Shown here: positions 863-10,513 of the stretch, in pieces
Position numbering within the stretch: the first letter of the stretch is position 1
Layout: every line of letters starts with the position of its first letter
Origin: Trueperaceae bacterium
GTDB lineage: Bacteria; Deinococcota; Deinococci; Deinococcales; Trueperaceae
Length of the DNA: 10,531 nt
Assembly (NCBI GenBank): GCA_024636105.1
Contig: JAGXHO010000243.1
Location: forward strand, 1-10,531
Direction of reading: 5' to 3'
Position numbers and translations under genes: made by a program
Notes under the pieces: generated by a model
What the model was told of the DNA's origin: nothing
What the model saw: the letters and a program-made list of their open reading frames with translations, nothing else
The model's database searches: none

Positions 863-1090
863 ATGCGCACGACCCTCGACCTCCCCGAAGACCTGTTGGA
901 ACGCGCCCGAGCGATCGCCCGCGGCACCAAGCGCAGCCTCGGCAGCGTCGTCGCCGACCTGATGCGGCACGGCCTCGCACCGGGTCCAGTAGCAGCCCCC
1001 GAGGCGAGCGCGCGAACCGGGTTGCCGCTGGTGTCGGTGGGACGCGTCGTGACGTCCGACGACGTGCGCGCGCTGGAGGACGAAGGGTGA
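863..1090 (+). CDS. vapB: VapB-type ribbon-helix-helix antitoxin
   Basis: A 75-residue protein that begins MRTTLDLPEDLLERA, the usual N-terminal strand and first helix of a ribbon-helix-helix DNA-binding domain. A second helix follows (SLGSVVADLMRHGL), then a flexible Ala/Pro-rich linker and a tail with PLVSVGRVVTSDDVRALEDE. That tail is typical of VapB antitoxins, where it wraps around the PIN toxin. A GTG at 857 would add two residues (M-A), but ATG at 863 gives the standard family N-terminus. The stop overlaps the toxin start by 4 nt (GTGA), so the two are translationally coupled. The palindrome at 838-851 probably allows repression by the VapBC complex. No strong Shine-Dalgarno site is visible, so the mRNA may be nearly leaderless. 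Confidence 0.88.
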   Translation: MRTTLDLPEDLLERARAIARGTKRSLGSVVADLMRHGLAPGPVAAPEASARTGLPLVSVGRVVTSDDVRALEDEG

Positions 1091-1485
1091 CGCTGCTGCT
1101 CGACGCCAACGTGCTCATCGCGGCCGTCGTCGTCGATCACGTGCACCACGGAGCCGCCGAGCGGTCCCTCGCGGCCGGCGAGGCGCCCTTCGCCACATGC
1201 CCCCTTACCGAGCTCGCGCTGGTGCGGTTTCTGGTCCGCGAGGGGACGCCCGCGGCCCACGCCGCCGCCGTGCTCGGCGCGATCATGCGCCATCCGCGCC
1301 ATCGGTCCTGGCCCGCCGATCTACCAGCGAGTGAGGTGCACTGGGGCGCCGTCCAGGGCCACCGGCAGGTCACGGACGCCTACTTGGCGGCGCTGGCGCG
1401 CGCCAAGGGCGGCCGCCTCCTCACGCTCGACCGCGGCTTGGCCGCCGCGCATCCGGACGTGACCGAACTCATCGACGCTCGGTGA
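1087..1485 (+). CDS. vapC: VapC-type PIN-domain ribonuclease toxin
   Basis: A 132-residue PIN-domain protein. The acidic residues expected for Mg2+-dependent RNase activity are all present: D6 (LLLDANVLI), E42 (TELALVRFL), D97 (VTDAYLAALA) and D115 (LLTLDRGLA). Length and order match VapC family toxins, which cleave specific RNAs such as tRNA or rRNA when freed from the antitoxin. The start is GTG, inside a GTGA overlap with the antitoxin stop. All catalytic positions are intact, so the toxin looks functional. The RNA target cannot be predicted. After the stop there is a 208-nt stretch without a certain gene, containing the promoter at 1551-1579. Confidence 0.92.
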   Translation: MTLLLDANVLIAAVVVDHVHHGAAERSLAAGEAPFATCPLTELALVRFLVREGTPAAHAAAVLGAIMRHPRHRSWPADLPASEVHWGAVQGHRQVTDAYLAALARAKGGRLLTLDRGLAAAHPDVTELIDAR

Positions 1486-2720: not shown

Positions 2721-3131
2721 TCACCCCAACACCCGCCGCACCACCCAGTCCTCGCTGCACGCCAGCACGGCCAGCTCGCTCGCCGTCACCCGGAAGACCG
2801 CCACCTGGTCGAACGCCGCCCCCACGCGCCGCGCGGCGTCGTCGGAGAGGCCCACGACGGCCCAGCTCTCCTCGGCATGTGCCGAGTCGGGATCGGCGCC
2901 TAGCGCCGGCACGGGCTCGTGGCCCAGGTCCACGAGGTGCGCGCGCAGGCGCTCGTTGGCGGCGCGGTTGACGGCATCGCTCGGACGTACGGCGCCCGGG
3001 TTCCAGGCGGTGAGCACGTGCACGGGGGCGCTCGCTGCCGCGGCGTAGGCGCCGGCGTCGAGCCAGGCGCCCTCCACGCGGACGGTCACGAGCGCCCCGA
3101 GGTAGACGGGGGCCCAGTGGAGCGAGCTCAC
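2721..3131 (-). CDS. DUF3293 domain-containing protein (136 aa)
   Basis: The sequence carries the DUF3293 pattern: an N-terminal strand region, then VHVLTAWNPGAVRPSDAVNRAANERLRAHLVDLG (the T-A-W-N-P turn and the N-x-x-x-N-x-x-L helix), PVPALGADPDS with HAEESWAVVGL, and the C-terminal GAAFDQVAVFRV strand. No function has been assigned to the family to my knowledge. There is no internal Met. The GTG at 3129-3131 (V-S-S-L-H-W-A-P) gives a length normal for the family; an in-frame extension to 3311 would run into the neighbouring vapC and is Arg/Cys-rich, so it is rejected. No clear Shine-Dalgarno site supports the start, which stays uncertain by a few codons. The 100-nt gap to vapC (3132-3231) shows only short, weak inverted repeats. 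Confidence 0.82.
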   Translation of the reverse strand: MSSLHWAPVYLGALVTVRVEGAWLDAGAYAAAASAPVHVLTAWNPGAVRPSDAVNRAANERLRAHLVDLGHEPVPALGADPDSAHAEESWAVVGLSDDAARRVGAAFDQVAVFRVTASELAVLACSEDWVVRRVLG

Positions 3132-3231
3132 TCGGCAGCCGCCGCGTGTCCCGCACGGTCCCGGATCGACCGAACGGGACGCACGCCGCTGGGTCGCGAT
3201 CGCACGAAACCCCGTGCACACGGCGCGCCGG

Positions 3232-3669
3232 TCACGCCACCAGGCGCACGACCTCGACGCCGTCGTACACGACGAAGTCGCGCCAGTCCGACGTCGCGAT
3301 GCGGCGGACACCGGCCGCTACGTACGTCGCGGCGAGGAGCGTATCCAACAAGCGCTTGCGCCCCAACCGATGGCGCGCCATCCAGTCGAAGAAAAGCGCC
3401 ACCGCATCGGGACCCTGCTCGACCTGGTGGGTCTCGCGCGCCGTCCACCACCGGTCGGCGATCGCGAGCGCCTCGTCCGTACCGAGCGGCCGCTCGAATC
3501 GGCGTGCGTCGGTGACGACGTGCACGAACTCGGCGAGCACCTGCGGCGCGAGGGCGACGCTCCCGGCGCGACCGCGGAGATCGCGATCGAAGACGGCCCA
3601 TGCCGCCGCATGCAGCGGATGCTCGCGTACCGCCACCGCGACCAGGAAGCTCGTGTCCAGCCCTATCAC
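3232..3669 (-). CDS. vapC: VapC-type PIN-domain ribonuclease toxin (second module)
   Basis: A 145-residue PIN-domain protein that starts at a GTG (VIGLDTSFLVAVAV). Expected acidic residues are D5 (LDTSFL), E47 (LAEFVHVVTD), D109 (LLDTLLAATY) and D128 (ATSDWRDF); the T-S-D-x-x-D-F ending is typical of this VapC subgroup. It is expected to be a Mg2+-dependent endoribonuclease held inactive by the antitoxin encoded just before it. The start GTG overlaps the antitoxin stop as GTGA. It shares little sequence with the vapC at 1087-1485, so the two pairs are separate lineages and not a duplication. The reading frame remains open far upstream of the GTG (to 6480), but that extension is an alternative frame of other genes. 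Confidence 0.92.
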   Translation of the reverse strand: MIGLDTSFLVAVAVREHPLHAAAWAVFDRDLRGRAGSVALAPQVLAEFVHVVTDARRFERPLGTDEALAIADRWWTARETHQVEQGPDAVALFFDWMARHRLGRKRLLDTLLAATYVAAGVRRIATSDWRDFVVYDGVEVVRLVA

Positions 3670-3908
3670 GGGCGGGTCGCTTCGGTCATCTCCTCGAGGA
3701 GGTCGTCGTCGGGCCGGAGCGGCTCCAGCACGCGGCCCAGCGAAGCCGGCGACCACCCCGTCAGGTCGCGACGCGGCATGAGGCGCTCGCGGCGATACGC
3801 CTCCATCGCCTCGCGGATCAACTCCGACGTGGGGCGTCCCATGGCCTGGGCGGCCCGACGGAACTCCGCGTACACGGGCTCGGATACATTGACCGTGATG
3901 GTCTTCAT
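3666..3908 (-). CDS. vapB: VapB-type ribbon-helix-helix antitoxin (second module)
   Basis: An 80-residue protein with the N-terminal strand KTITVNVSEPVYAEF, a helix-turn AAQAMGRPTSELIREAMEAYRRERL (the second RHH helix begins at the P-T-S cap), and a charged C-terminal tail with LEPLRPDDDLLEEMTEATRP for toxin binding. The stop codon overlaps the toxin GTG by 4 nt. The ATG lies 9 nt after the stop of the DUF418 gene with no Shine-Dalgarno site between. It may therefore be read by coupling to that gene or have its own promoter inside the end of it; CATAC/GTATG at 3906-3927 might be an operator. Family assignment is strong from the RHH pattern and the adjacent PIN toxin. Confidence 0.9.
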   Translation of the reverse strand: MKTITVNVSEPVYAEFRRAAQAMGRPTSELIREAMEAYRRERLMPRRDLTGWSPASLGRVLEPLRPDDDLLEEMTEATRP

Positions 3909-3927
3909 ACATCGAGCTTAACGTATG
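3906..3927. promoter_or_regulatory. Short inverted repeat over the second vapB start, possible operator
   Basis: CATAC (3906-3910) and GTATG (3923-3927) form a 5-bp inverted repeat spaced by 12 bp, covering the antitoxin start codon and the stop of the upstream gene. The position suits an antitoxin operator, but arms this short may be chance. Confidence 0.25.
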
Positions 3928-5096
3928 GTTTGCCGCCACACCCGCGTCCACCCGCTCATCGCCCACTCGAACGGCCCTTGCCGGAAGCGCCCGAGCACCA
4001 GCCGCGCGAAGCCCGCAAGCACCACGTACGTGGCGACCGCCACCAGCACCGTCCCCCAGTACGGCAGGCGCTGGTAGAGCCCCAGCCCCCAGGGCCCGAA
4101 GATCGTCGCGAGCACCATCGACTGCAGTAGGTACGTGGTGAGCGACATCCGCCCTGGGTAGCGCAGCCACGCCACCCACGCCGGGCGCCGCTCGAGCAGC
4201 CACAGCAGCGCGCCGACGTACCCGGCCGCGAGCAGTGGCGCAGTGGTGAGCCCGAAGGCCACGGCACCCACGGCGACGGCGTCGGAGGAGGCCACGCTCA
4301 ACTCGTTCGCGACGCCCACCCATGCCGACGCCACCTGGAGCGGCAGTCCGAGGCCGAAGCCCCACGCCATCAGCCGCGTCGCGCCGAACACGCGTGCACC
4401 GCCGCCGAGCGCGCCCGCGCGCGCTGCCATCAGCCCCAGCAGGAACATCACGAAGGCGTAGCCGCCCTGGAGCACCAGGCCCGAGGGGAGGCCGACCGCG
4501 AAGAGCTCCAGGCGCGCGGCGATCGACGCGCCGTAGGTGCCTTCCCGGAACACGGCGTCCAGGGTCGAGGTCGTGAGCACGGCGGTCTGCTCGCCGGCGC
4601 GCTCCGCGGCCCACAGCGCCCACACCAGCAGCGCCTGCAGGGCGGCCGTCGCCACGAAGACGCCCCACGCCCAACGCCGCAGCGCGGCGCCGTCGCGGAA
4701 CATCAGCGCCGCGAACGGCAGCGCGAGAAGCCCGTAGGCGAAGAGGATGTCGCCGTGGAACAGCAGCGCGCCATGCAGCGCTCCGAGCGCGAGCAGCGCG
4801 AACGCCCGCGCGATCCAGCGCGGCCGCCGCGCCGGATCCGCCTTCACCACGTACTGCGAGCTGTAACCGAACAGGAACGAGAACAGCAGGTAGAACTTCC
4901 CCTGCGCGAGCGCCCACACGAGGAACGCTGCGACCGTGTTCCCCGCCCCGCGCAGCCACGGACCCGTCGCGCCCAAGCCGGGGTCGATGGCAAAGAACGC
5001 GACGTTCACGAGCGCGATGCCGAACAGCGCGAAGCCGCGCAGGACGTCGGGGGCGAGGTCGCGGGGGGTGCGCGCGGGGAAGGATCGGTCGTGCAT
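3918..5096 (-). CDS. DUF418/YeiB-like polytopic membrane protein
   Basis: About 392 residues with roughly nine to ten hydrophobic segments. Family hallmarks in order: PDVLRGFALFGIALVNVAFF in the first helix (near residues 18-36); FYLLFSFLFGYSSQYV (about 69-84); LGALHGALLFHGDILFAYGLLAL (about 105-127); and near the C-terminus GRMSLTTYLLQSMVLATIFGPWGLGLY (DUF418 domain). These match YeiB-type inner-membrane proteins, an acyltransferase-3-like group whose biochemical role is not established. The start is taken as ATG at 5096; a GTG directly before it at 5099 is possible. No Shine-Dalgarno site precedes either, and the 42-nt gap to the hydantoinase B stop holds a nested inverted repeat. The gene could be the last member of that operon or separately transcribed; a link to hydantoin metabolism is not supported by family knowledge. 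Confidence 0.9.
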   Translation of the reverse strand: MHDRSFPARTPRDLAPDVLRGFALFGIALVNVAFFAIDPGLGATGPWLRGAGNTVAAFLVWALAQGKFYLLFSFLFGYSSQYVVKADPARRPRWIARAFALLALGALHGALLFHGDILFAYGLLALPFAALMFRDGAALRRWAWGVFVATAALQALLVWALWAAERAGEQTAVLTTSTLDAVFREGTYGASIAARLELFAVGLPSGLVLQGGYAFVMFLLGLMAARAGALGGGARVFGATRLMAWGFGLGLPLQVASAWVGVANELSVASSDAVAVGAVAFGLTTAPLLAAGYVGALLWLLERRPAWVAWLRYPGRMSLTTYLLQSMVLATIFGPWGLGLYQRLPYWGTVLVAVATYVVLAGFARLVLGRFRQGPFEWAMSGWTRVWRQTIR

Positions 5097-5103
5097 CACG
5101 GAT

Positions 5104-5142
5104 ACGGTACCGCCGCAGTGTGCGGCGCCGCCTCCGTACCGT
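5104..5142 (-). terminator. Nested inverted repeat after the hydantoinase B gene
   Basis: An inner 7-bp hairpin (5111-5117 with 5121-5127, 3-nt loop) sits inside an outer 7-bp pairing (5104-5110 with 5136-5142), leaving 8 unpaired nt on one side. It fills the gap between the hydantoinase B stop and the DUF418 start. On the minus strand the unpaired bulge reads GGAGGCGG. It could end the hydantoinase operon or attenuate read-through into the membrane-protein gene. Confidence 0.5.
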
Positions 5143-6770
5143 CAGCGCGTGACGTACCCCTCGGCCAGGTCGGACGCGTGCGCGGCTGGATCGCGCTCCG
5201 CCACGTCGCCGAAGCCGCTGCCGCCGGCGATCTCGATCGTGCACACGTCCGCGGGCGTCCGCAACTCGGCCATCCCGTCCAGCTCCGCATCGACGCGCCG
5301 GCCGTCGGGTCCGTCGAACGAGACGCTCGCGCGTCGACCCGCCGCACCGCCCGCAAGACCCTGCGTCGAAACGATCATCCCCTGGGGATGCAAGGAGAGC
5401 AGCGCCGTGCGCCCATCGTCGCGAAGCTTGCGCACGCGCACCCGTTGACCCAAACCGCCTCGGTGGCGACCCATGCCGGCGCTGTCCGGGATGAGCGCCT
5501 TCTCCTCGACGACCAGCGGGGTGCGCGTCTCGAACATCTCGATCGAGGTGTTGCCCGCCGACGTCGGGTACAGCAGCGCGCTCTTGCCGTCGCCGCGCGC
5601 CCCCGCTCCCTGTCCGCCGCCTTGGAACAGGTGATCGTTGAACACCGTCCCATCGGCGTCGATCCCATACGCGCCGGCACCCATCGGCAGGCCGGTGAAC
5701 GCTTGCACGGCGTTCGGCAACACGTCGGCGAGCGCCGCGAACACCGCGGGCGCGCAGTACCAACCCGTGTGGGTGCGAAGGTTGACCGCGGCGGGATAAG
5801 CGCAGTTGAGCATGCTCCCCTCCGGCGCGACCACCTCGATCGGCCGGAAGCAGCCGGCGTTCGACGGAATCTCCGGCGTGAGGATGCTCTTGAGCGCGTA
5901 CACCGTATGCGCGGCCGTGTAATTGAGGGTGCAGTTGATGCCACCCTTCGCCAGTTGCGGCGGGGCGTCCCACTCGACGCGCAGGTGCTCGCCCTCGACG
6001 TGGATCGCGACGCCGAGTTCGAGCGGCGTACCCACGCCGTCGAAGCCGACGCGGCTGCGGTACACGCCGTCGGGCACGGCGGCGATGGCGTCCCGCATCG
6101 CCTGCTCGGCGCGGGTCTGCACCTCGTACGCCAGGTCGGACAGGTCGTCGAGGTCGTAGGCGTCGAGGAACGCCAGCAGCCGCTCGCGCGCGACGAGGTT
6201 CGCGCCATGCTGGGCGTGTATGTCGCCGAGCACCATCTCGCCTTTGCGCACGTTCTGATCGATGAGCGCGAACAGCGTGCGGTTGGGGACGCCCGCCTCG
6301 TAGAGCTTCATCGGCGGGATCTGCAGACCCTCCTCGTACACCTCGCGCACGCTCTGGTAGTGCCGCGTGCCGCCGATGTCCGAGCAGTGCGCGATCGAAC
6401 CGACGAGCGCCACGAGCCGCCCATGCCGGAAGACGGGCGTGACGATCGCGACGTCGAACAGGTGACCGGCGCAGATCCACGGGTCGTTCGTGATGAGGGC
6501 GTCGCCCTCTTGGAGCGTGTCGGGCGGGAACACTTCGAGCAGCGACTTCACCGCGCGCGGCAGCGTGAGGTTGAAGACCGGCATGGATCGCGGCGAATGG
6601 GCCAGCGATTCGCCCTGCGCATCCAGCAGCTCGCAGCCGAAGTCCTGCGCCTCACCGATGATCGTGCTGAACGCCGTGCGCCAGATGGTGGTCCAACACT
6701 CCTCGGTGATGTTGATCATGCGACTCCACATCACCTCGAGGCTCACGGGGTCGAATTTCGAGGCACTCAC
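5142..6770 (-). CDS. hyuB: Hydantoinase B / oxoprolinase family subunit (HyuB-like)
   Basis: A full-length 542-residue Hydantoinase_B protein, the partner of the ATP-dependent HyuA subunit. Family hallmarks: KFDPVSLEVMWSRM at the start; DAQGESLAHSPRSMPVF (about 50-66); the metal-site region ITNDPWICAGHLFDVAIV (N95, D96, H103, D106) and SIAHCSDIGG (H128, D131); and the glycine-rich C-terminal FQGGGQGAGARGDG followed by SAGNTSIEMFETRTP and LIPDSAGMGRHRGGLGQ. These residues match the mononuclear-metal subunits of N-methylhydantoinases, 5-oxoprolinase and related carboxylases. The usual reaction is ATP-driven ring opening or related amide chemistry; the substrate here is unknown. The GTG start overlaps the hyuA stop by 4 nt and has a strong AGGAGGTG (minus strand, 6776-6783) inside the end of hyuA. 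All key residues are intact. Confidence 0.95.
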   Translation of the reverse strand: MSASKFDPVSLEVMWSRMINITEECWTTIWRTAFSTIIGEAQDFGCELLDAQGESLAHSPRSMPVFNLTLPRAVKSLLEVFPPDTLQEGDALITNDPWICAGHLFDVAIVTPVFRHGRLVALVGSIAHCSDIGGTRHYQSVREVYEEGLQIPPMKLYEAGVPNRTLFALIDQNVRKGEMVLGDIHAQHGANLVARERLLAFLDAYDLDDLSDLAYEVQTRAEQAMRDAIAAVPDGVYRSRVGFDGVGTPLELGVAIHVEGEHLRVEWDAPPQLAKGGINCTLNYTAAHTVYALKSILTPEIPSNAGCFRPIEVVAPEGSMLNCAYPAAVNLRTHTGWYCAPAVFAALADVLPNAVQAFTGLPMGAGAYGIDADGTVFNDHLFQGGGQGAGARGDGKSALLYPTSAGNTSIEMFETRTPLVVEEKALIPDSAGMGRHRGGLGQRVRVRKLRDDGRTALLSLHPQGMIVSTQGLAGGAAGRRASVSFDGPDGRRVDAELDGMAELRTPADVCTIEIAGGSGFGDVAERDPAAHASDLAEGYVTR

Positions 6771-8884
6771 GCGCCCACCTCCTGGTGCTCGTGCGTCGCC
6801 GCGGTGGGCGCCGCAATCGCAACGCGCAAGTTACCGACCGCGTCGACCTGAACGACGTCGCCGGGCGCGAGGACGGTCGTGCTCTCGCGCTCTTCGACGA
6901 TGGCGGGACCTGCGATGCGCACCCCCACGGGCAGAGCGCTGCGGTCGTAGACGGGCGTCGCGACGAAGCCCCCCGCTTCCGGGAAGTACGCGCGGCGCTC
7001 GCCCTTGGCGGCGGCGACGTCGCCGCCGAGGACCTCCGCGAGCGGTACGTCGGGCGCCGGACCGAGGGCGCGAACGCGCCAGCTCATCGCCATCGGCCGG
7101 TAGCCCTCGAGCACCGTGTGGTACGTCGCCGCATACGCGCGCTCGAAGGCGTCGGTCAGCGCCGCTCCGGTGGACGCCTCGATGGGGCCCTCGTGCAACG
7201 GCACCTCGATCTCGTGGAACTGCCCGATCAAGCGCGCCTCGACGGATCGCTCGATCTCGACGTCCTCCGGCAGCACTCCGGCCGTGGCGAGCACCGCCCG
7301 CGCATCGGTCTCCATGGCCTCCAGGACGCTGGCGATCACGGCCGGATCGAGTTGGTCGAACGCGACGGGGTAGGACCGGACGACTTCGTGGCTGACCGGC
7401 GCCACCAGGAAACCGAGCGCGGAAGCGACCCCAGAGACGGGTGGGACGAGCATCTCGCGGGCACCGAGGATGCGCGCGACGCGCGCCGCGTGCGCGGGAC
7501 CCGCGCCGCCGAAGGCAAGCACCGGGAACTCGCGCGGGTCGTGGTTCTTCTCGATGATGTGAACGCGCGCCGCGCCGGCCATGTTCTCGCAGACGACCTG
7601 GTGGATCCCCCACGCCGCCTCGACCGCGCTCAGCCCCAGTTTGGCGCCGAGGGCCGCGCAGGCACGTTCGGACGCAGCAGCGTCCAGCGTCATCGCGCCG
7701 CCGAGGAAGTAGCCGGGATCGTAGTAGCCGAGCACCAAGCATGCGTCGGTGACGGTCGCCTCGGTACCGCCCAAGCCGTAACAGGCAGGTCCTGGATCCG
7801 CGGAGGCGCTGTCCGGGCCCACCTTCAAGAGCCCGAGCGCATCCTTGCGCGCGATCGAACCGCCGCCGGCACCGATCTCGATCATGTCGACCACCGGGGC
7901 GCGGATCGGAAGTCCGGAACCGCGCTTGAAGCGATGGACGCGGCCCGCTTCCATCTCCGCGGCGACATCCGGGCGGCCGTCGCGAATCAGGCACGCCTTG
8001 GCCGTCGTGCCGCCCATGTCGAAGGACAGCAGGTTCGACAGACCCGCGCGTGCGCCCAGGTACGCCGTGGCAAGCGCCCCACCGGCAGGACCGGACTCCA
8101 GGAGCCGAACCGGAAAGCGCCGCGCGGTCTCCGGCGAAGCCACCCCCCCGGAGCTGAGCATCAGCGCGAAGCGCCCGCGGAAGCCACCGCTGCGCAGCGC
8201 GTCGTCCATGCGGCGCAGGTATCGGTCCATGACCGGTTGGACGTACGCGTTGCACGCCGTGGTGTTGGTGCGCGCGTATTCGCGGATCTCGGGAACCACC
8301 TCCGACGAGAGCGACACGTACAGCCCGGGATGGCGCGCCAGGACGCGCTCGGCGACCGCACGCTCGTGGTCGGGGTTGCGGTACGCGTGCAGGAGGCAGA
8401 TGGCGACGCTCTCGACGCCGTCGGCGACGAGCGCGTCGATGAGCTCGTCGACCGACGCGGGATCGAGCGGACGCAGCACGCGGCCGTCGCGGTCGAGCCG
8501 CTCGTCGACCTCGAGGCGCCACCGGCGCGGCACGATCGGTTCCGGGTACTGCAGGAACAGGTCGTATATGTCGTACCGCTGCTCGTGCCCCATCTCGAGC
8601 ACGTCGCGAAACCCCTTGGTGGTCAACAACCCGGTGGGGCGGCCGCGACGCTCGATGATCGCGTTCGTGACGAGCGTCGTCCCGTGCAGCACGGTGCCGA
8701 CGTCTTCCAAGGCGATGCCAGCAAAGCCAAGCAGTTCGTCCAGGCCCGCGAGCGCGCCCTCGGCCGGATCGGACGGCGTGGTCAGCCGCTTGTTGATCCG
8801 CAGGCTGCCGCCCTCCCGGTCGAACAGGACGTAGTCGGTGAAGGTGCCTCCGATGTCGAGGCCGACCTGATAGCGCGCGTTCAC
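6767..8884 (-). CDS. hyuA: Hydantoinase A / oxoprolinase family subunit (HyuA-like)
   Basis: A 705-residue protein of the ATP-binding subunit family. The N-terminal domain (about 1-185) has the actin-like phosphate loop VGLDIGGTFTDYVLFD (D10-D17) and the conserved LHGTTLVTNAIIERRG. The central domain (about 200-490) has SSEVVPEIREYARTNTTACN, LSSGGVASPETA, LLESGPAGGA, the second phosphate motif LLSFDMGGTTAKACLI (D289) and LAFGGAGPAHA. The C-terminal domain runs from about 505 to 690. Together with HyuB it should couple ATP hydrolysis to cleavage of a cyclic amide such as a hydantoin or 5-oxoproline; carboxylase relatives (acetone, acetophenone) share the fold, so the substrate is open. The start is GTG at 8884, overlapping the DUF1177 stop (GTGA). 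Length and motifs are complete. Confidence 0.95.
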   Translation of the reverse strand: MNARYQVGLDIGGTFTDYVLFDREGGSLRINKRLTTPSDPAEGALAGLDELLGFAGIALEDVGTVLHGTTLVTNAIIERRGRPTGLLTTKGFRDVLEMGHEQRYDIYDLFLQYPEPIVPRRWRLEVDERLDRDGRVLRPLDPASVDELIDALVADGVESVAICLLHAYRNPDHERAVAERVLARHPGLYVSLSSEVVPEIREYARTNTTACNAYVQPVMDRYLRRMDDALRSGGFRGRFALMLSSGGVASPETARRFPVRLLESGPAGGALATAYLGARAGLSNLLSFDMGGTTAKACLIRDGRPDVAAEMEAGRVHRFKRGSGLPIRAPVVDMIEIGAGGGSIARKDALGLLKVGPDSASADPGPACYGLGGTEATVTDACLVLGYYDPGYFLGGAMTLDAAASERACAALGAKLGLSAVEAAWGIHQVVCENMAGAARVHIIEKNHDPREFPVLAFGGAGPAHAARVARILGAREMLVPPVSGVASALGFLVAPVSHEVVRSYPVAFDQLDPAVIASVLEAMETDARAVLATAGVLPEDVEIERSVEARLIGQFHEIEVPLHEGPIEASTGAALTDAFERAYAATYHTVLEGYRPMAMSWRVRALGPAPDVPLAEVLGGDVAAAKGERRAYFPEAGGFVATPVYDRSALPVGVRIAGPAIVEERESTTVLAPGDVVQVDAVGNLRVAIAAPTAATHEHQEVGA
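6776..6783 (-). promoter_or_regulatory. Strong ribosome binding site for hyuB within the hyuA 3' end
   Basis: Minus-strand AGGAGGTG lies 5 nt before the GTG of hyuB, inside the last codons of hyuA. It supports the GTG start at 6770 and independent re-initiation in addition to coupling. Confidence 0.75.
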
Positions 8885-9816
8885 GACGGTTCCCTTCCGA
8901 CGAGCCGATCCATCGGCCCGTACGCGGCCACGAGGGCTGCGTGTTCCTCGCGGTCATAGAAGCTCAGGCCGCCGGTCCCGAAGCGCTTGGCGACCTCGAG
9001 CGCGAACTGCCCCGCGGCGGCGACGTCGTCGACCTGGGTGGCGCCGGTGGCGCTCCCCGGCACGGCGACCTGCGCGGTCAGGGCGACGCCGACGACGGGC
9101 ACCCGCGCCACGACCGCCGGCTGCATGATCGAGTTGACGTGGTACACGCCGTTGCCGTACGGGGTGAGGTCCTGCATGGTGATCGGCAGCACGAGGGGAA
9201 TCCGCCCGGTCACCCAGCCCGCGACGTCGAGCAAGTCGTCGGCGACGCGCATGATCCATCCGTCCAGGACCGTTGCGGTGATCGCGATCCCCTTGGCGTT
9301 GAGCACCCGGTTCCCGCGCGTCGTGTCGATCGACAACAGCGCGTCCATCTCGGAGCGGACCTCGACGGCGTTCATCGCGGCCGAGTCGACGGGCGACCCC
9401 ATCATCGGCACCGGCTTGTGCGGGCGCACCGGCGCGTCGGGGCAGACGTGCGTCGTGACGATCAGATCCCCGTCGAGGTGGTCGCCGGCCGCCGCCATCT
9501 CGGCCGCCTTGGCGGCCGTGGCGAGCGCCGCGACGGCGCCGTCGCCGTCCGAGACGTGGCCGATCATCTGCGGTCGGGCCCCGGAACCGCCCAAGCGCCC
9601 GATCACGCCGAGCGTCGGAGCGTTGCCGCCGCTGGACTTGCCGTGGCGACCGCGCACCAAGGCGCGCACGTGGTCGGTCGACCCCTGGGGTCCTTGGAGC
9701 CGCTCGACGTGGACGTCGACCGGACCTTGGGCCTCGAGGTAGGCGCGCACCCCTGCGCCGTCCGCATCGGGTCGATCGAGCCGGTCGAGCAGCGCGAGAA
9801 CGTGCCGCCAGATCAT
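8881..9816 (-). CDS. DUF1177 family protein (311 aa)
   Basis: Matches the DUF1177 family: GVIGRLGGSGARPQMIGHVSDGDGAVAALATA (70-101), DLIVTTHVCPDAPVRPHKPVPMMGSPVD (117-144), EMDALLSIDTTRGNRVLN (156-173), and PITMQDLTPYGNGVYHV (211-227). The function is unassigned. The conserved H87, D90, D92, H123, D127 and H133 could form a metal or catalytic site, and the H-V-S-D-G-D-G-A and T-H-x-C-P-D-A-P stretches recall co-catalytic metallopeptidase folds, but that is speculation. ATG at 9816 was chosen because minus-strand GGAGG (9822-9826) sits 5 nt before it; an open frame to 10014 overlaps AroM and is Arg-rich, so it is rejected. It lies 22 nt after aroM and overlaps hyuA by 4 nt, so it is very likely part of the same pathway. 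Confidence 0.9.
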   Translation of the reverse strand: MIWRHVLALLDRLDRPDADGAGVRAYLEAQGPVDVHVERLQGPQGSTDHVRALVRGRHGKSSGGNAPTLGVIGRLGGSGARPQMIGHVSDGDGAVAALATAAKAAEMAAAGDHLDGDLIVTTHVCPDAPVRPHKPVPMMGSPVDSAAMNAVEVRSEMDALLSIDTTRGNRVLNAKGIAITATVLDGWIMRVADDLLDVAGWVTGRIPLVLPITMQDLTPYGNGVYHVNSIMQPAVVARVPVVGVALTAQVAVPGSATGATQVDDVAAAGQFALEVAKRFGTGGLSFYDREEHAALVAAYGPMDRLVGREPS

Positions 9817-9821
9817 GAGTG

Positions 9822-9826
9822 CCTCC
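9822..9826 (-). promoter_or_regulatory. Ribosome binding site GGAGG that fixes the DUF1177 start
   Basis: Minus-strand GGAGG with 5-nt spacing to the ATG at 9816, in the 22-nt gap after the AroM stop. Confidence 0.75.
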
Positions 9827-9838
9827 AGGCGTGCGCGC

Positions 9839-10513
9839 TCATGCGGCGACCTCCGCCGCGATGCGCGCCGCCATCGAGCGAGCGACCACCACAGGGCCGC
9901 CGAACGCCGCGCGCGCCGCCGCCCCCATCTCGGCGTCGTAGCCGAAGCAGTCCATGAACAGCGCCGCGGCCCCAGCCGCGTCCGCGCGCGCCGCGGCTGC
10001 GGCGACGGCGCCATGGGGATCGTCCCCGTACGGGTCGGCGTCGAACACGACGGAATCGATCCCGAGCGACGTCCACTTTGCCTGCGCCTGCGGTACTTGC
10101 GACGCCAACGGGGTCAGCGAGGCCACGATCCCATCGCCCGCCAGCCCCTTGACAACTCCGTACAGCGCCAACTGGGGCTGGATCAACGGCACGCGGTGCC
10201 GGAACGGAGGGAACTCGCCGGTGCACATGATCAAGATCGCGTCGGCCCCTGCGCCCTCGAGGGCGTCAACCTGCGCCTGCAAGCGCTCGAGGATGAAGCG
10301 CTTGGCGATCTCGACCGACGAACCGTCCTGCAGCAGCGTGATCAACCGGTAGTCGCCGGGGCCGGGCCGCATGCCCGCGAGCTCACTGCGCGACAGCCCG
10401 TCGAGCGCCCCGCGTTCGAGCACGCGTTCGATGCCGCTCGCGGCGGCGACGTCGCGGGCGAGGCCATCCGGCCGCGGGGCCTGTCCGATGGTGAGCAGTC
10501 CGAGGGTCGCCAT
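9839..10513 (-). CDS. AroM family protein, Asp/Glu/hydantoin racemase-like (224 aa)
   Basis: A complete 224-residue AroM-family protein: GLLTIGQAPRPD (5-16) at the N-terminus, RLITLLQDGSSVEIAKR (56-72), a central ADAILIMCTGEFPPF (90-104), a QVPQAQAKW helix (139-147), and ALFMDCFGYD (184-193) near the end. Despite the name, AroM has no proven role in aromatic biosynthesis. The fold is related to aspartate/glutamate/hydantoin racemases, which use two cysteines, one per domain. Here C97 (M-C-T-G) and C189 (D-C-F-G) sit at such positions. E. coli AroM, as I remember it, has Ser in place of the first. The neighbourhood (DUF1177, HyuA, HyuB) supports a racemase or isomerase role; this is inference. 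ATG at 10513 has minus-strand GGAG (10521-10524) 7 nt upstream. It is the first operon gene visible; the operon may start outside the window. Confidence 0.9.
   Translation of the reverse strand: MATLGLLTIGQAPRPDGLARDVAAASGIERVLERGALDGLSRSELAGMRPGPGDYRLITLLQDGSSVEIAKRFILERLQAQVDALEGAGADAILIMCTGEFPPFRHRVPLIQPQLALYGVVKGLAGDGIVASLTPLASQVPQAQAKWTSLGIDSVVFDADPYGDDPHGAVAAAAARADAAGAAALFMDCFGYDAEMGAAARAAFGGPVVVARSMAARIAAEVAA

Follow-up and report, generated by a model that had tools for sequence, protein, structure and literature searches.

A minus-strand AroM-DUF1177-HyuA-HyuB gene set in a Trueperaceae contig and its possible role in the assimilation of peptide-derived cyclic amides

The window analysed here (the whole stretch of 10,531 nucleotides (nt), contig JAGXHO010000243.1 of the Trueperaceae bacterium assembly GCA_024636105.1) carries four complete genes encoding AroM, a DUF1177 protein (PF06675, IPR009561) and the subunits HyuA and HyuB of a hydantoinase-type enzyme. 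Their positions and Pfam scores are as follows.

10513-9839, minus strand: AroM, 224 amino acids (aa); Pfam AroM 201 bits, above the cut-off
9817-9838, minus strand: gap of 22 nt between AroM and DUF1177, with GGAGG, resembling a ribosome-binding site, shortly before the DUF1177 ATG
9816-8881, minus strand: DUF1177, 311 aa; Pfam DUF1177 395 bits, above the cut-off
8884-6767, minus strand: HyuA, 705 aa; PF05378 Hydant_A_N 183 bits, PF01968 Hydantoinase_A 285 bits and PF19278 Hydant_A_C 50 bits, all above the cut-offs
6770-5142, minus strand: HyuB, 542 aa; PF02538 Hydantoinase_B 451 bits, above the cut-off

The DUF1177/HyuA and HyuA/HyuB junctions are each a 4-nt GTGA overlap, and the layout given in an earlier, sequence-only reading of this DNA (four genes on the minus strand, 22 nt between the first two and GTGA overlaps at the other two junctions) was confirmed from the open reading frames and the sequence; such a compact same-strand arrangement points to co-expression of the four genes. 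A mechanical list of reading frames offers a longer DUF1177 frame that reaches 10014 and overlaps AroM; the start at 9816 agrees with the family alignment. The contig (10531 bases according to the protein database) ends beside AroM, so its upstream neighbour is out of sight.

AroM is predicted to adopt the fold of the hydantoin/allantoin/Asp-Glu racemases; its best structural match is the hydantoin racemase 2eq5 (tied with others), and Cys97 and Cys189 were invariant in 40 of 40 sequences. The two cysteines would form the catalytic pair, and AroM is probably a cofactor-independent racemase or epimerase; its earlier placement near the Asp/Glu/hydantoin racemases is thus borne out by the predicted fold and both cysteines. 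For DUF1177, the predicted model shows the fold of the M28/M42/M20 zinc exopeptidases, and the protein is probably a hydrolase. The likeness lies in the predicted fold, whereas by sequence no significant match to M28, M42 or M20 was found (Pfam finds DUF1177 only, and a profile-profile link to these families was not significant), and the HxD and Glu-Glu motifs, which we take to be the active-site motifs of these peptidases, are not conserved. R74 (126 of 126 sequences) comes after the strand at which HxD is expected, as placed by secondary structure, and the next strand ends in T122 (126/126) and H123 (122/126). Candidate metal ligands would be D90, H123, D164, D216 and H226. At least 3079 homologs of DUF1177 passed E 0.001 in one search, and genomes with the family span Thermococcus to Actinomycetota; in IMG/VR, no DNA matched patterns built from the DUF1177 of the window.

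By sequence, the closest solved relatives of HyuA are the N-methylhydantoinase 7hk5 (E 1.7e-124) and the caprolactamase 6yra (E 8.5e-106). HyuA carries a PGP motif and both phosphate motifs, P1 (DIGGTFTD at D10) and P2 (DMGGT at D289), which are defined for subunit A as DxGGTxTD and DxGGT in passages of the caprolactamase paper (PMC8453981), and D43, H103, D106 and H128 of HyuB align to the CapB metal ligands D41, H99, D102 and H124 as given in those passages. HyuA would thus be the ATP-binding, phosphorylating subunit and HyuB the hydrolysing subunit with the metal site. The pair resembles the CapAB/N-methylhydantoinase/5-oxoprolinase family in its Pfam scores, the ATP motifs and the D-H-D-H site of HyuB, but differs in being joined to AroM and DUF1177 and in Lys296 (in DMGGTTAK), which occupies the substrate-site position of CapA Asp302. 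Asp stands at this position in the displayed solved chains 7hk5, 6yra, 5l9w gamma, 5svb and 5m45 (5l9w alpha left out), its status as a family-defining residue not being established; Lys was found in 120 of the 120 nearest HyuA relatives, and passages of PMC8453981 place Lys281 of the acetophenone carboxylase alpha-prime subunit there. The best NCBIfam models are caprolactamase subunits, and scores of 505 (HyuA) and 198.5 bits (HyuB) against the 1000 required, i.e., half and a fifth of the cut-offs, led us to reject a plain caprolactamase identity.

The surroundings of DUF1177 were surveyed in the best 80 of 580 confirmed loci from a species-genome collection, a non-random sample that includes Bacillota, Actinomycetota, Synergistota, Spirochaetes, Bathyarchaeota, Thermococcus and others. 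Families within 10 kb of DUF1177 were counted by hidden Markov models (HMMs), named from a Pfam scan of one representative per cluster, and set against 20 stretches of 20 kb that served as controls and came from seven of the genomes (G001, G004, G011, G111, G207, G357 and G389); since clusters from these same 80 loci supplied the HMMs, the comparison favours the loci, and the controls test close family members only. Loci truncated by contig ends undercount their neighbours; the greedy caller of reading frames missed some AroM genes overlapping DUF1177, and HMM counts were used instead. Neighbours without a class numbered 77 as listed, of which 46 were scanned, the first 25 of 66 families being seen. 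AroM was present in 53 of the 80 loci (0/20 controls); in 34 it adjoined DUF1177 in the same orientation at a distance of up to 150 nt, lying downstream of it in 33 of these 34; the order in the window, AroM-DUF1177, is the reverse. OppB/C or OPT transporters occurred in 52 loci against 2 controls, and an M20 or M29-like peptidase in 51 against none. Counted per 80 loci, the transport genes were Opp ATPases (41), SBP family 5 (31), OppB (30), OppC (29) and OPT (24), and the peptidase genes M29-like (34), M20 (28), a second M20 group (13) and S51 (7); the 20 controls held 7 Opp ATPases, 2 OppB, 1 OppC, 1 SBP and none of the remaining families. Asp/Glu racemase (26/80) and DUF917 (24/80) were each absent from the controls, the regulators IclR and PucR were found in 22 and 19 loci, and NCS1 permease and CN-hydrolase in 6 each (either in 7). 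A recurring operon, with many variants, runs regulator, OPT or Opp, Asp/Glu racemase, DUF917, DUF1177, AroM, M29-like peptidase, and the commonest context of DUF1177 is peptide uptake together with peptidases. AroM and an Asp/Glu-type racemase shared the same locus in 24 of 80 cases; AroM therefore differs from the Asp/Glu/hydantoin/allantoin racemase superfamily not only in forming its own Pfam family but also in often being accompanied by a classical member, and the proposal that it stands in for a hydantoin racemase was discarded as a general rule.

Two phylum samples were also covered. DUF1177 was detected in 9 of 201 genomes in the sample around G008 (Ktedonobacter; two weak hits, one the chosen centre) and in 8 of 296 around G001 (Actinopolymorpha; one weak, one the chosen centre), tallies that include the centre genomes, picked for having DUF1177, as well as weak DUF1177-like hits in G018, G097 and G478, where no DUF1177 gene was called. 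Twelve regions around strong hits, six per sample, were read, the weak hits lying outside them. AroM and DUF917 were both present in 6/6 regions of the G008 phylum. In the six Actinomycetota regions (L109-L114), DUF1177 was accompanied by M29-like peptidase, DUF917 and a short HyuA in all six, by CN-hydrolase in five and by NCS1 permease in four, and no AroM was found; NCS1 permease and CN-hydrolase also stood together with DUF1177 in L033, L072, L074 and L079. A hydantoin-type context therefore exists alongside the peptide context, and the earlier idea that DUF1177 hydrolyses an N-carbamoyl or peptide-like product draws partial support from this subset and from the predicted peptidase-type fold. 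Nine further regions around AroM hits of the G008 phylum (weak hits left out) contained OppB/C in six cases and DUF1177 in just two, so AroM also works without DUF1177. Plasmid records with DUF1177 numbered seven; four were fetched (one of them unannotated), and the arrangements were IclR-OPT-DUF1177-AroM-pepE-racemase on a Klebsiella plasmid, Opp-M20-DUF1177-AroM on a Paenibacillus plasmid, and Opp-DUF917-DUF1177-AroM-aminopeptidase on a haloarchaeon plasmid. The Klebsiella set lies between transposase genes, and its plasmid is typed as conjugative, which suggests horizontal spread. The recurrent core is DUF1177 and AroM in peptide-uptake/peptidase operons; individual clades add enzymes of the ring type, either DUF917 with a short HyuA or HyuAB.

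Near the window's own sequences, HyuA is associated with DUF1177 and AroM. Contig sharing was scored as an equal size of the longest contig among the best 120 homologs of each protein, the contig sequences themselves being unread, and compared with a shift control in which sizes were offset by 1-25. DUF1177 and HyuA coincided on 7 contigs besides the window (shift mean 0.48, maximum 3), AroM and HyuA on 17 (0.44, 3), DUF1177 and AroM on 17 (1.04, 3), and all three on 6. Contigs of 101,635 and 311,673 bases carry Trueperaceae names in all three homolog lists, and the nearest named relatives of the window's AroM, DUF1177 and HyuA are Trueperaceae metagenome-assembled genomes. For a contig of 4024 bases, the three proteins (226, 311 and 695 aa) would occupy about 3.7 kb, so the three genes are adjacent provided that this is a single contig. 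The DUF1177 tree covered 120 sequences (arbitrarily rooted on L055; the partial DUF1177 of a 10963-base contig was left out); in it, the seven HyuA-linked sequences, the window included, lay together in a clade of 21 tips (support 0.958) with none of the 80 loci inside, and the two surveyed loci with full-length HyuAB (L056, L078) were placed elsewhere. For HyuA, the association with AroM and DUF1177 proposed from the sequence is therefore supported among near relatives of the window.

We consider it possible, with a probability slightly below one half (about 0.47), that the four genes form a co-expressed module for the assimilation of a compound derived from peptides in which a cyclic amide is present or has arisen. 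The compound would be imported (relatives often have Opp-type ABC or OPT transporters), AroM, as a two-cysteine racemase or epimerase, would set its stereocentre, HyuA would phosphorylate the cyclic amide using ATP, HyuB would open the ring at its D-H-D-H metal site, and DUF1177, which its predicted fold relates distantly to the M28/M42/M20 peptidases and which has its own conserved D/H set, would cleave the ring-opened product or a comparable amide. The gene order, families, predicted folds, conserved residues and the association of HyuA with DUF1177 and AroM close to the window's sequences were established by computation; we infer co-expression, what each enzyme does, the sequence of the reactions and the kind of substrate (a peptide-derived lactam, diketopiperazine, hydantoin or imide). 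The simplest reading would be that such modules serve to use peptide-derived compounds that are protected from ordinary peptidases by their stereochemistry or by cyclisation. More tentatively, DUF1177 might found a new family of metal-dependent amidases (a zinc-exopeptidase fold with another ligand set) and, with AroM, lie at the heart of an unrecognised bacterial and archaeal pathway for stereo-inverted or cyclised peptides, for which the clade of the window would have recruited an ATP-dependent ring-opener.

A hydantoin/N-carbamoyl pathway proper, in which AroM racemises a 5-substituted hydantoin or an N-carbamoyl amino acid or peptide, HyuAB opens the ring and DUF1177 decarbamoylates the product, has the match of AroM to 2eq5, the gene content of the Actinomycetota regions and the four loci with NCS1 permease and CN-hydrolase in its favour. 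We nevertheless regard it as unlikely: NCS1 permease or CN-hydrolase marks 7/80 loci against 52/80 with peptide uptake, DUF1177 persists even where CN-hydrolase is present, the six Actinomycetota regions lack AroM, and the Pfam scan of the DUF1177 protein yields DUF1177 alone.

Several observations weigh against a cyclic-amide module that includes HyuAB. Full-length HyuAB lay near DUF1177 in 2/80 loci (696 and 684 aa for HyuA, from the reading frames), with any HyuA in 4 and HyuB in 2 (the HMM, labelled 'HyuAshort', covered short and full-length forms); in the G008-phylum sample, HyuA was found in 97 of 201 genomes against 9 with DUF1177, and the 14 regions that surround its best HyuA hits held neither AroM nor DUF1177; in genome G050, HyuAB and AroM-DUF1177 lie on different contigs (the latter of 6.4 kb); and, with Lys in place of Asp in HyuA, ring opening has to be argued from family membership. 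HyuAB as the standard partner of DUF1177 was therefore rejected as a family-wide rule, which for the family at large is the outcome that the sequence-only reading had named as refuting it, and plasmid records show a similar imbalance (988 with HyuA, 7 with DUF1177). The sequence-only reading was supported by the folds, the motifs (ATP motifs and four metal ligands) and the link of HyuA among near relatives, but not in taking HyuAB for a usual partner and AroM for a replacement. These counts, with G050, Lys296 and Lys281 of acetophenone carboxylase, would also fit AroM-DUF1177 being a general peptide or D-amino-acid module beside a functionally unrelated, Lys-type, carboxylase-like or otherwise different HyuAB, a view to which we give a low probability, since HyuA shares contigs with DUF1177 and AroM far more often than in the shift control, the HyuA-linked DUF1177s fall in one clade and the window has 4-nt overlaps, which together suggest a maintained association. 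In favour of the proposed module, Lys-type HyuAB also stands with peptide importers: two of the 988 HyuA plasmid records were read, both Alphaproteobacterial, and both had IclR, a Lys-type HyuAB fusion, SBP5, OppB, OppC and two ATPases; among the 14 HyuA regions, OppB/C was present in one (L267 of G050, with Lys-type HyuAB) and SBP5 in two.

PepE is specific for Asp-X peptides. Salvage of D- or iso-aspartyl/glutamyl peptides or cyclic imides, in which a racemase, the opening of imides and a dedicated peptidase would deal with isomerised residues, would suit the 24 loci with both AroM and Asp/Glu racemase, S51 (PepE-type) near DUF1177 in 7/80, pepE in the Klebsiella plasmid set and an aspartoacylase-family gene in L233, but is quite improbable, as S51 is a minority partner and neither DUF1177 nor AroM has a residue shown to indicate aspartate.

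The proposed cyclic-amide module has a partial parallel in cyclodipeptide-oxidase-like clusters that lack a cyclodipeptide synthase: according to passages of PMC11055893, hydantoin racemase, DUF917, AroM, Opp and OPT are enriched there and peptidases occur in many, all of them shared with DUF1177 loci, but the main text of that paper does not contain 'DUF1177' and the passages do not name a HyuA/HyuB pair. The nitroreductase-fold pair CDO-A/CDO-B was not among the ten window proteins scanned by Pfam, the contig stopping beside AroM. In L063, tandem nitroreductase-family genes (12534-13717) directly follow PucR-racemase-OPT-DUF917-DUF1177-AroM-M29-like and are a candidate cyclodipeptide-oxidase-like pair; a pair suspected in L056 was rejected, its reading frames resembling, by eye, the C-terminal part of a HyuB and a regulator of the helix-turn-helix/cupin kind. 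In the open-access literature searched, outside which most subscription journals lie, we found no function for DUF1177 and no function or activity for AroM, no paper pairing AroM with a hydantoinase, and none that brings together a hydantoinase, a racemase and dipeptide transport in an operon. DUF1177 is named in one paper there, whose title concerns another DUF, and by title none of the papers that mention AroM and a racemase deals with this protein. Both DUF1177 and AroM have a wide distribution, and the fold, candidate active-site residues, frequent partner and short list of substrate classes make DUF1177 directly assayable; nitrogen and carbon recycling could thereby gain a route for cyclic or D-peptides that combines racemase, peptidase and lactamase.

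Downstream of HyuB, a gene for a DUF418 (YeiB-like) protein (3918-5099, minus strand) begins after 42 nt on the same strand, so the end of the operon is not certain, and the gene possibly shares a transcript with HyuB. A hairpin behind HyuB was rejected as a terminator (z -1.64, equalled in 12 of 200 shuffles), and promoter and terminator scans did no better than shuffles. The reading frames 2022-2645 and 2721-3219 (minus strand) had no Pfam match at E 0.001. At 3232-3908 (minus strand), a CopG-type ribbon-helix-helix gene overlaps a PIN-domain VapC-like gene, probably a toxin-antitoxin pair, and another VapC-family PIN protein is encoded at 1087-1485 (plus strand; 89.4 bits against a cut-off of 73.6).

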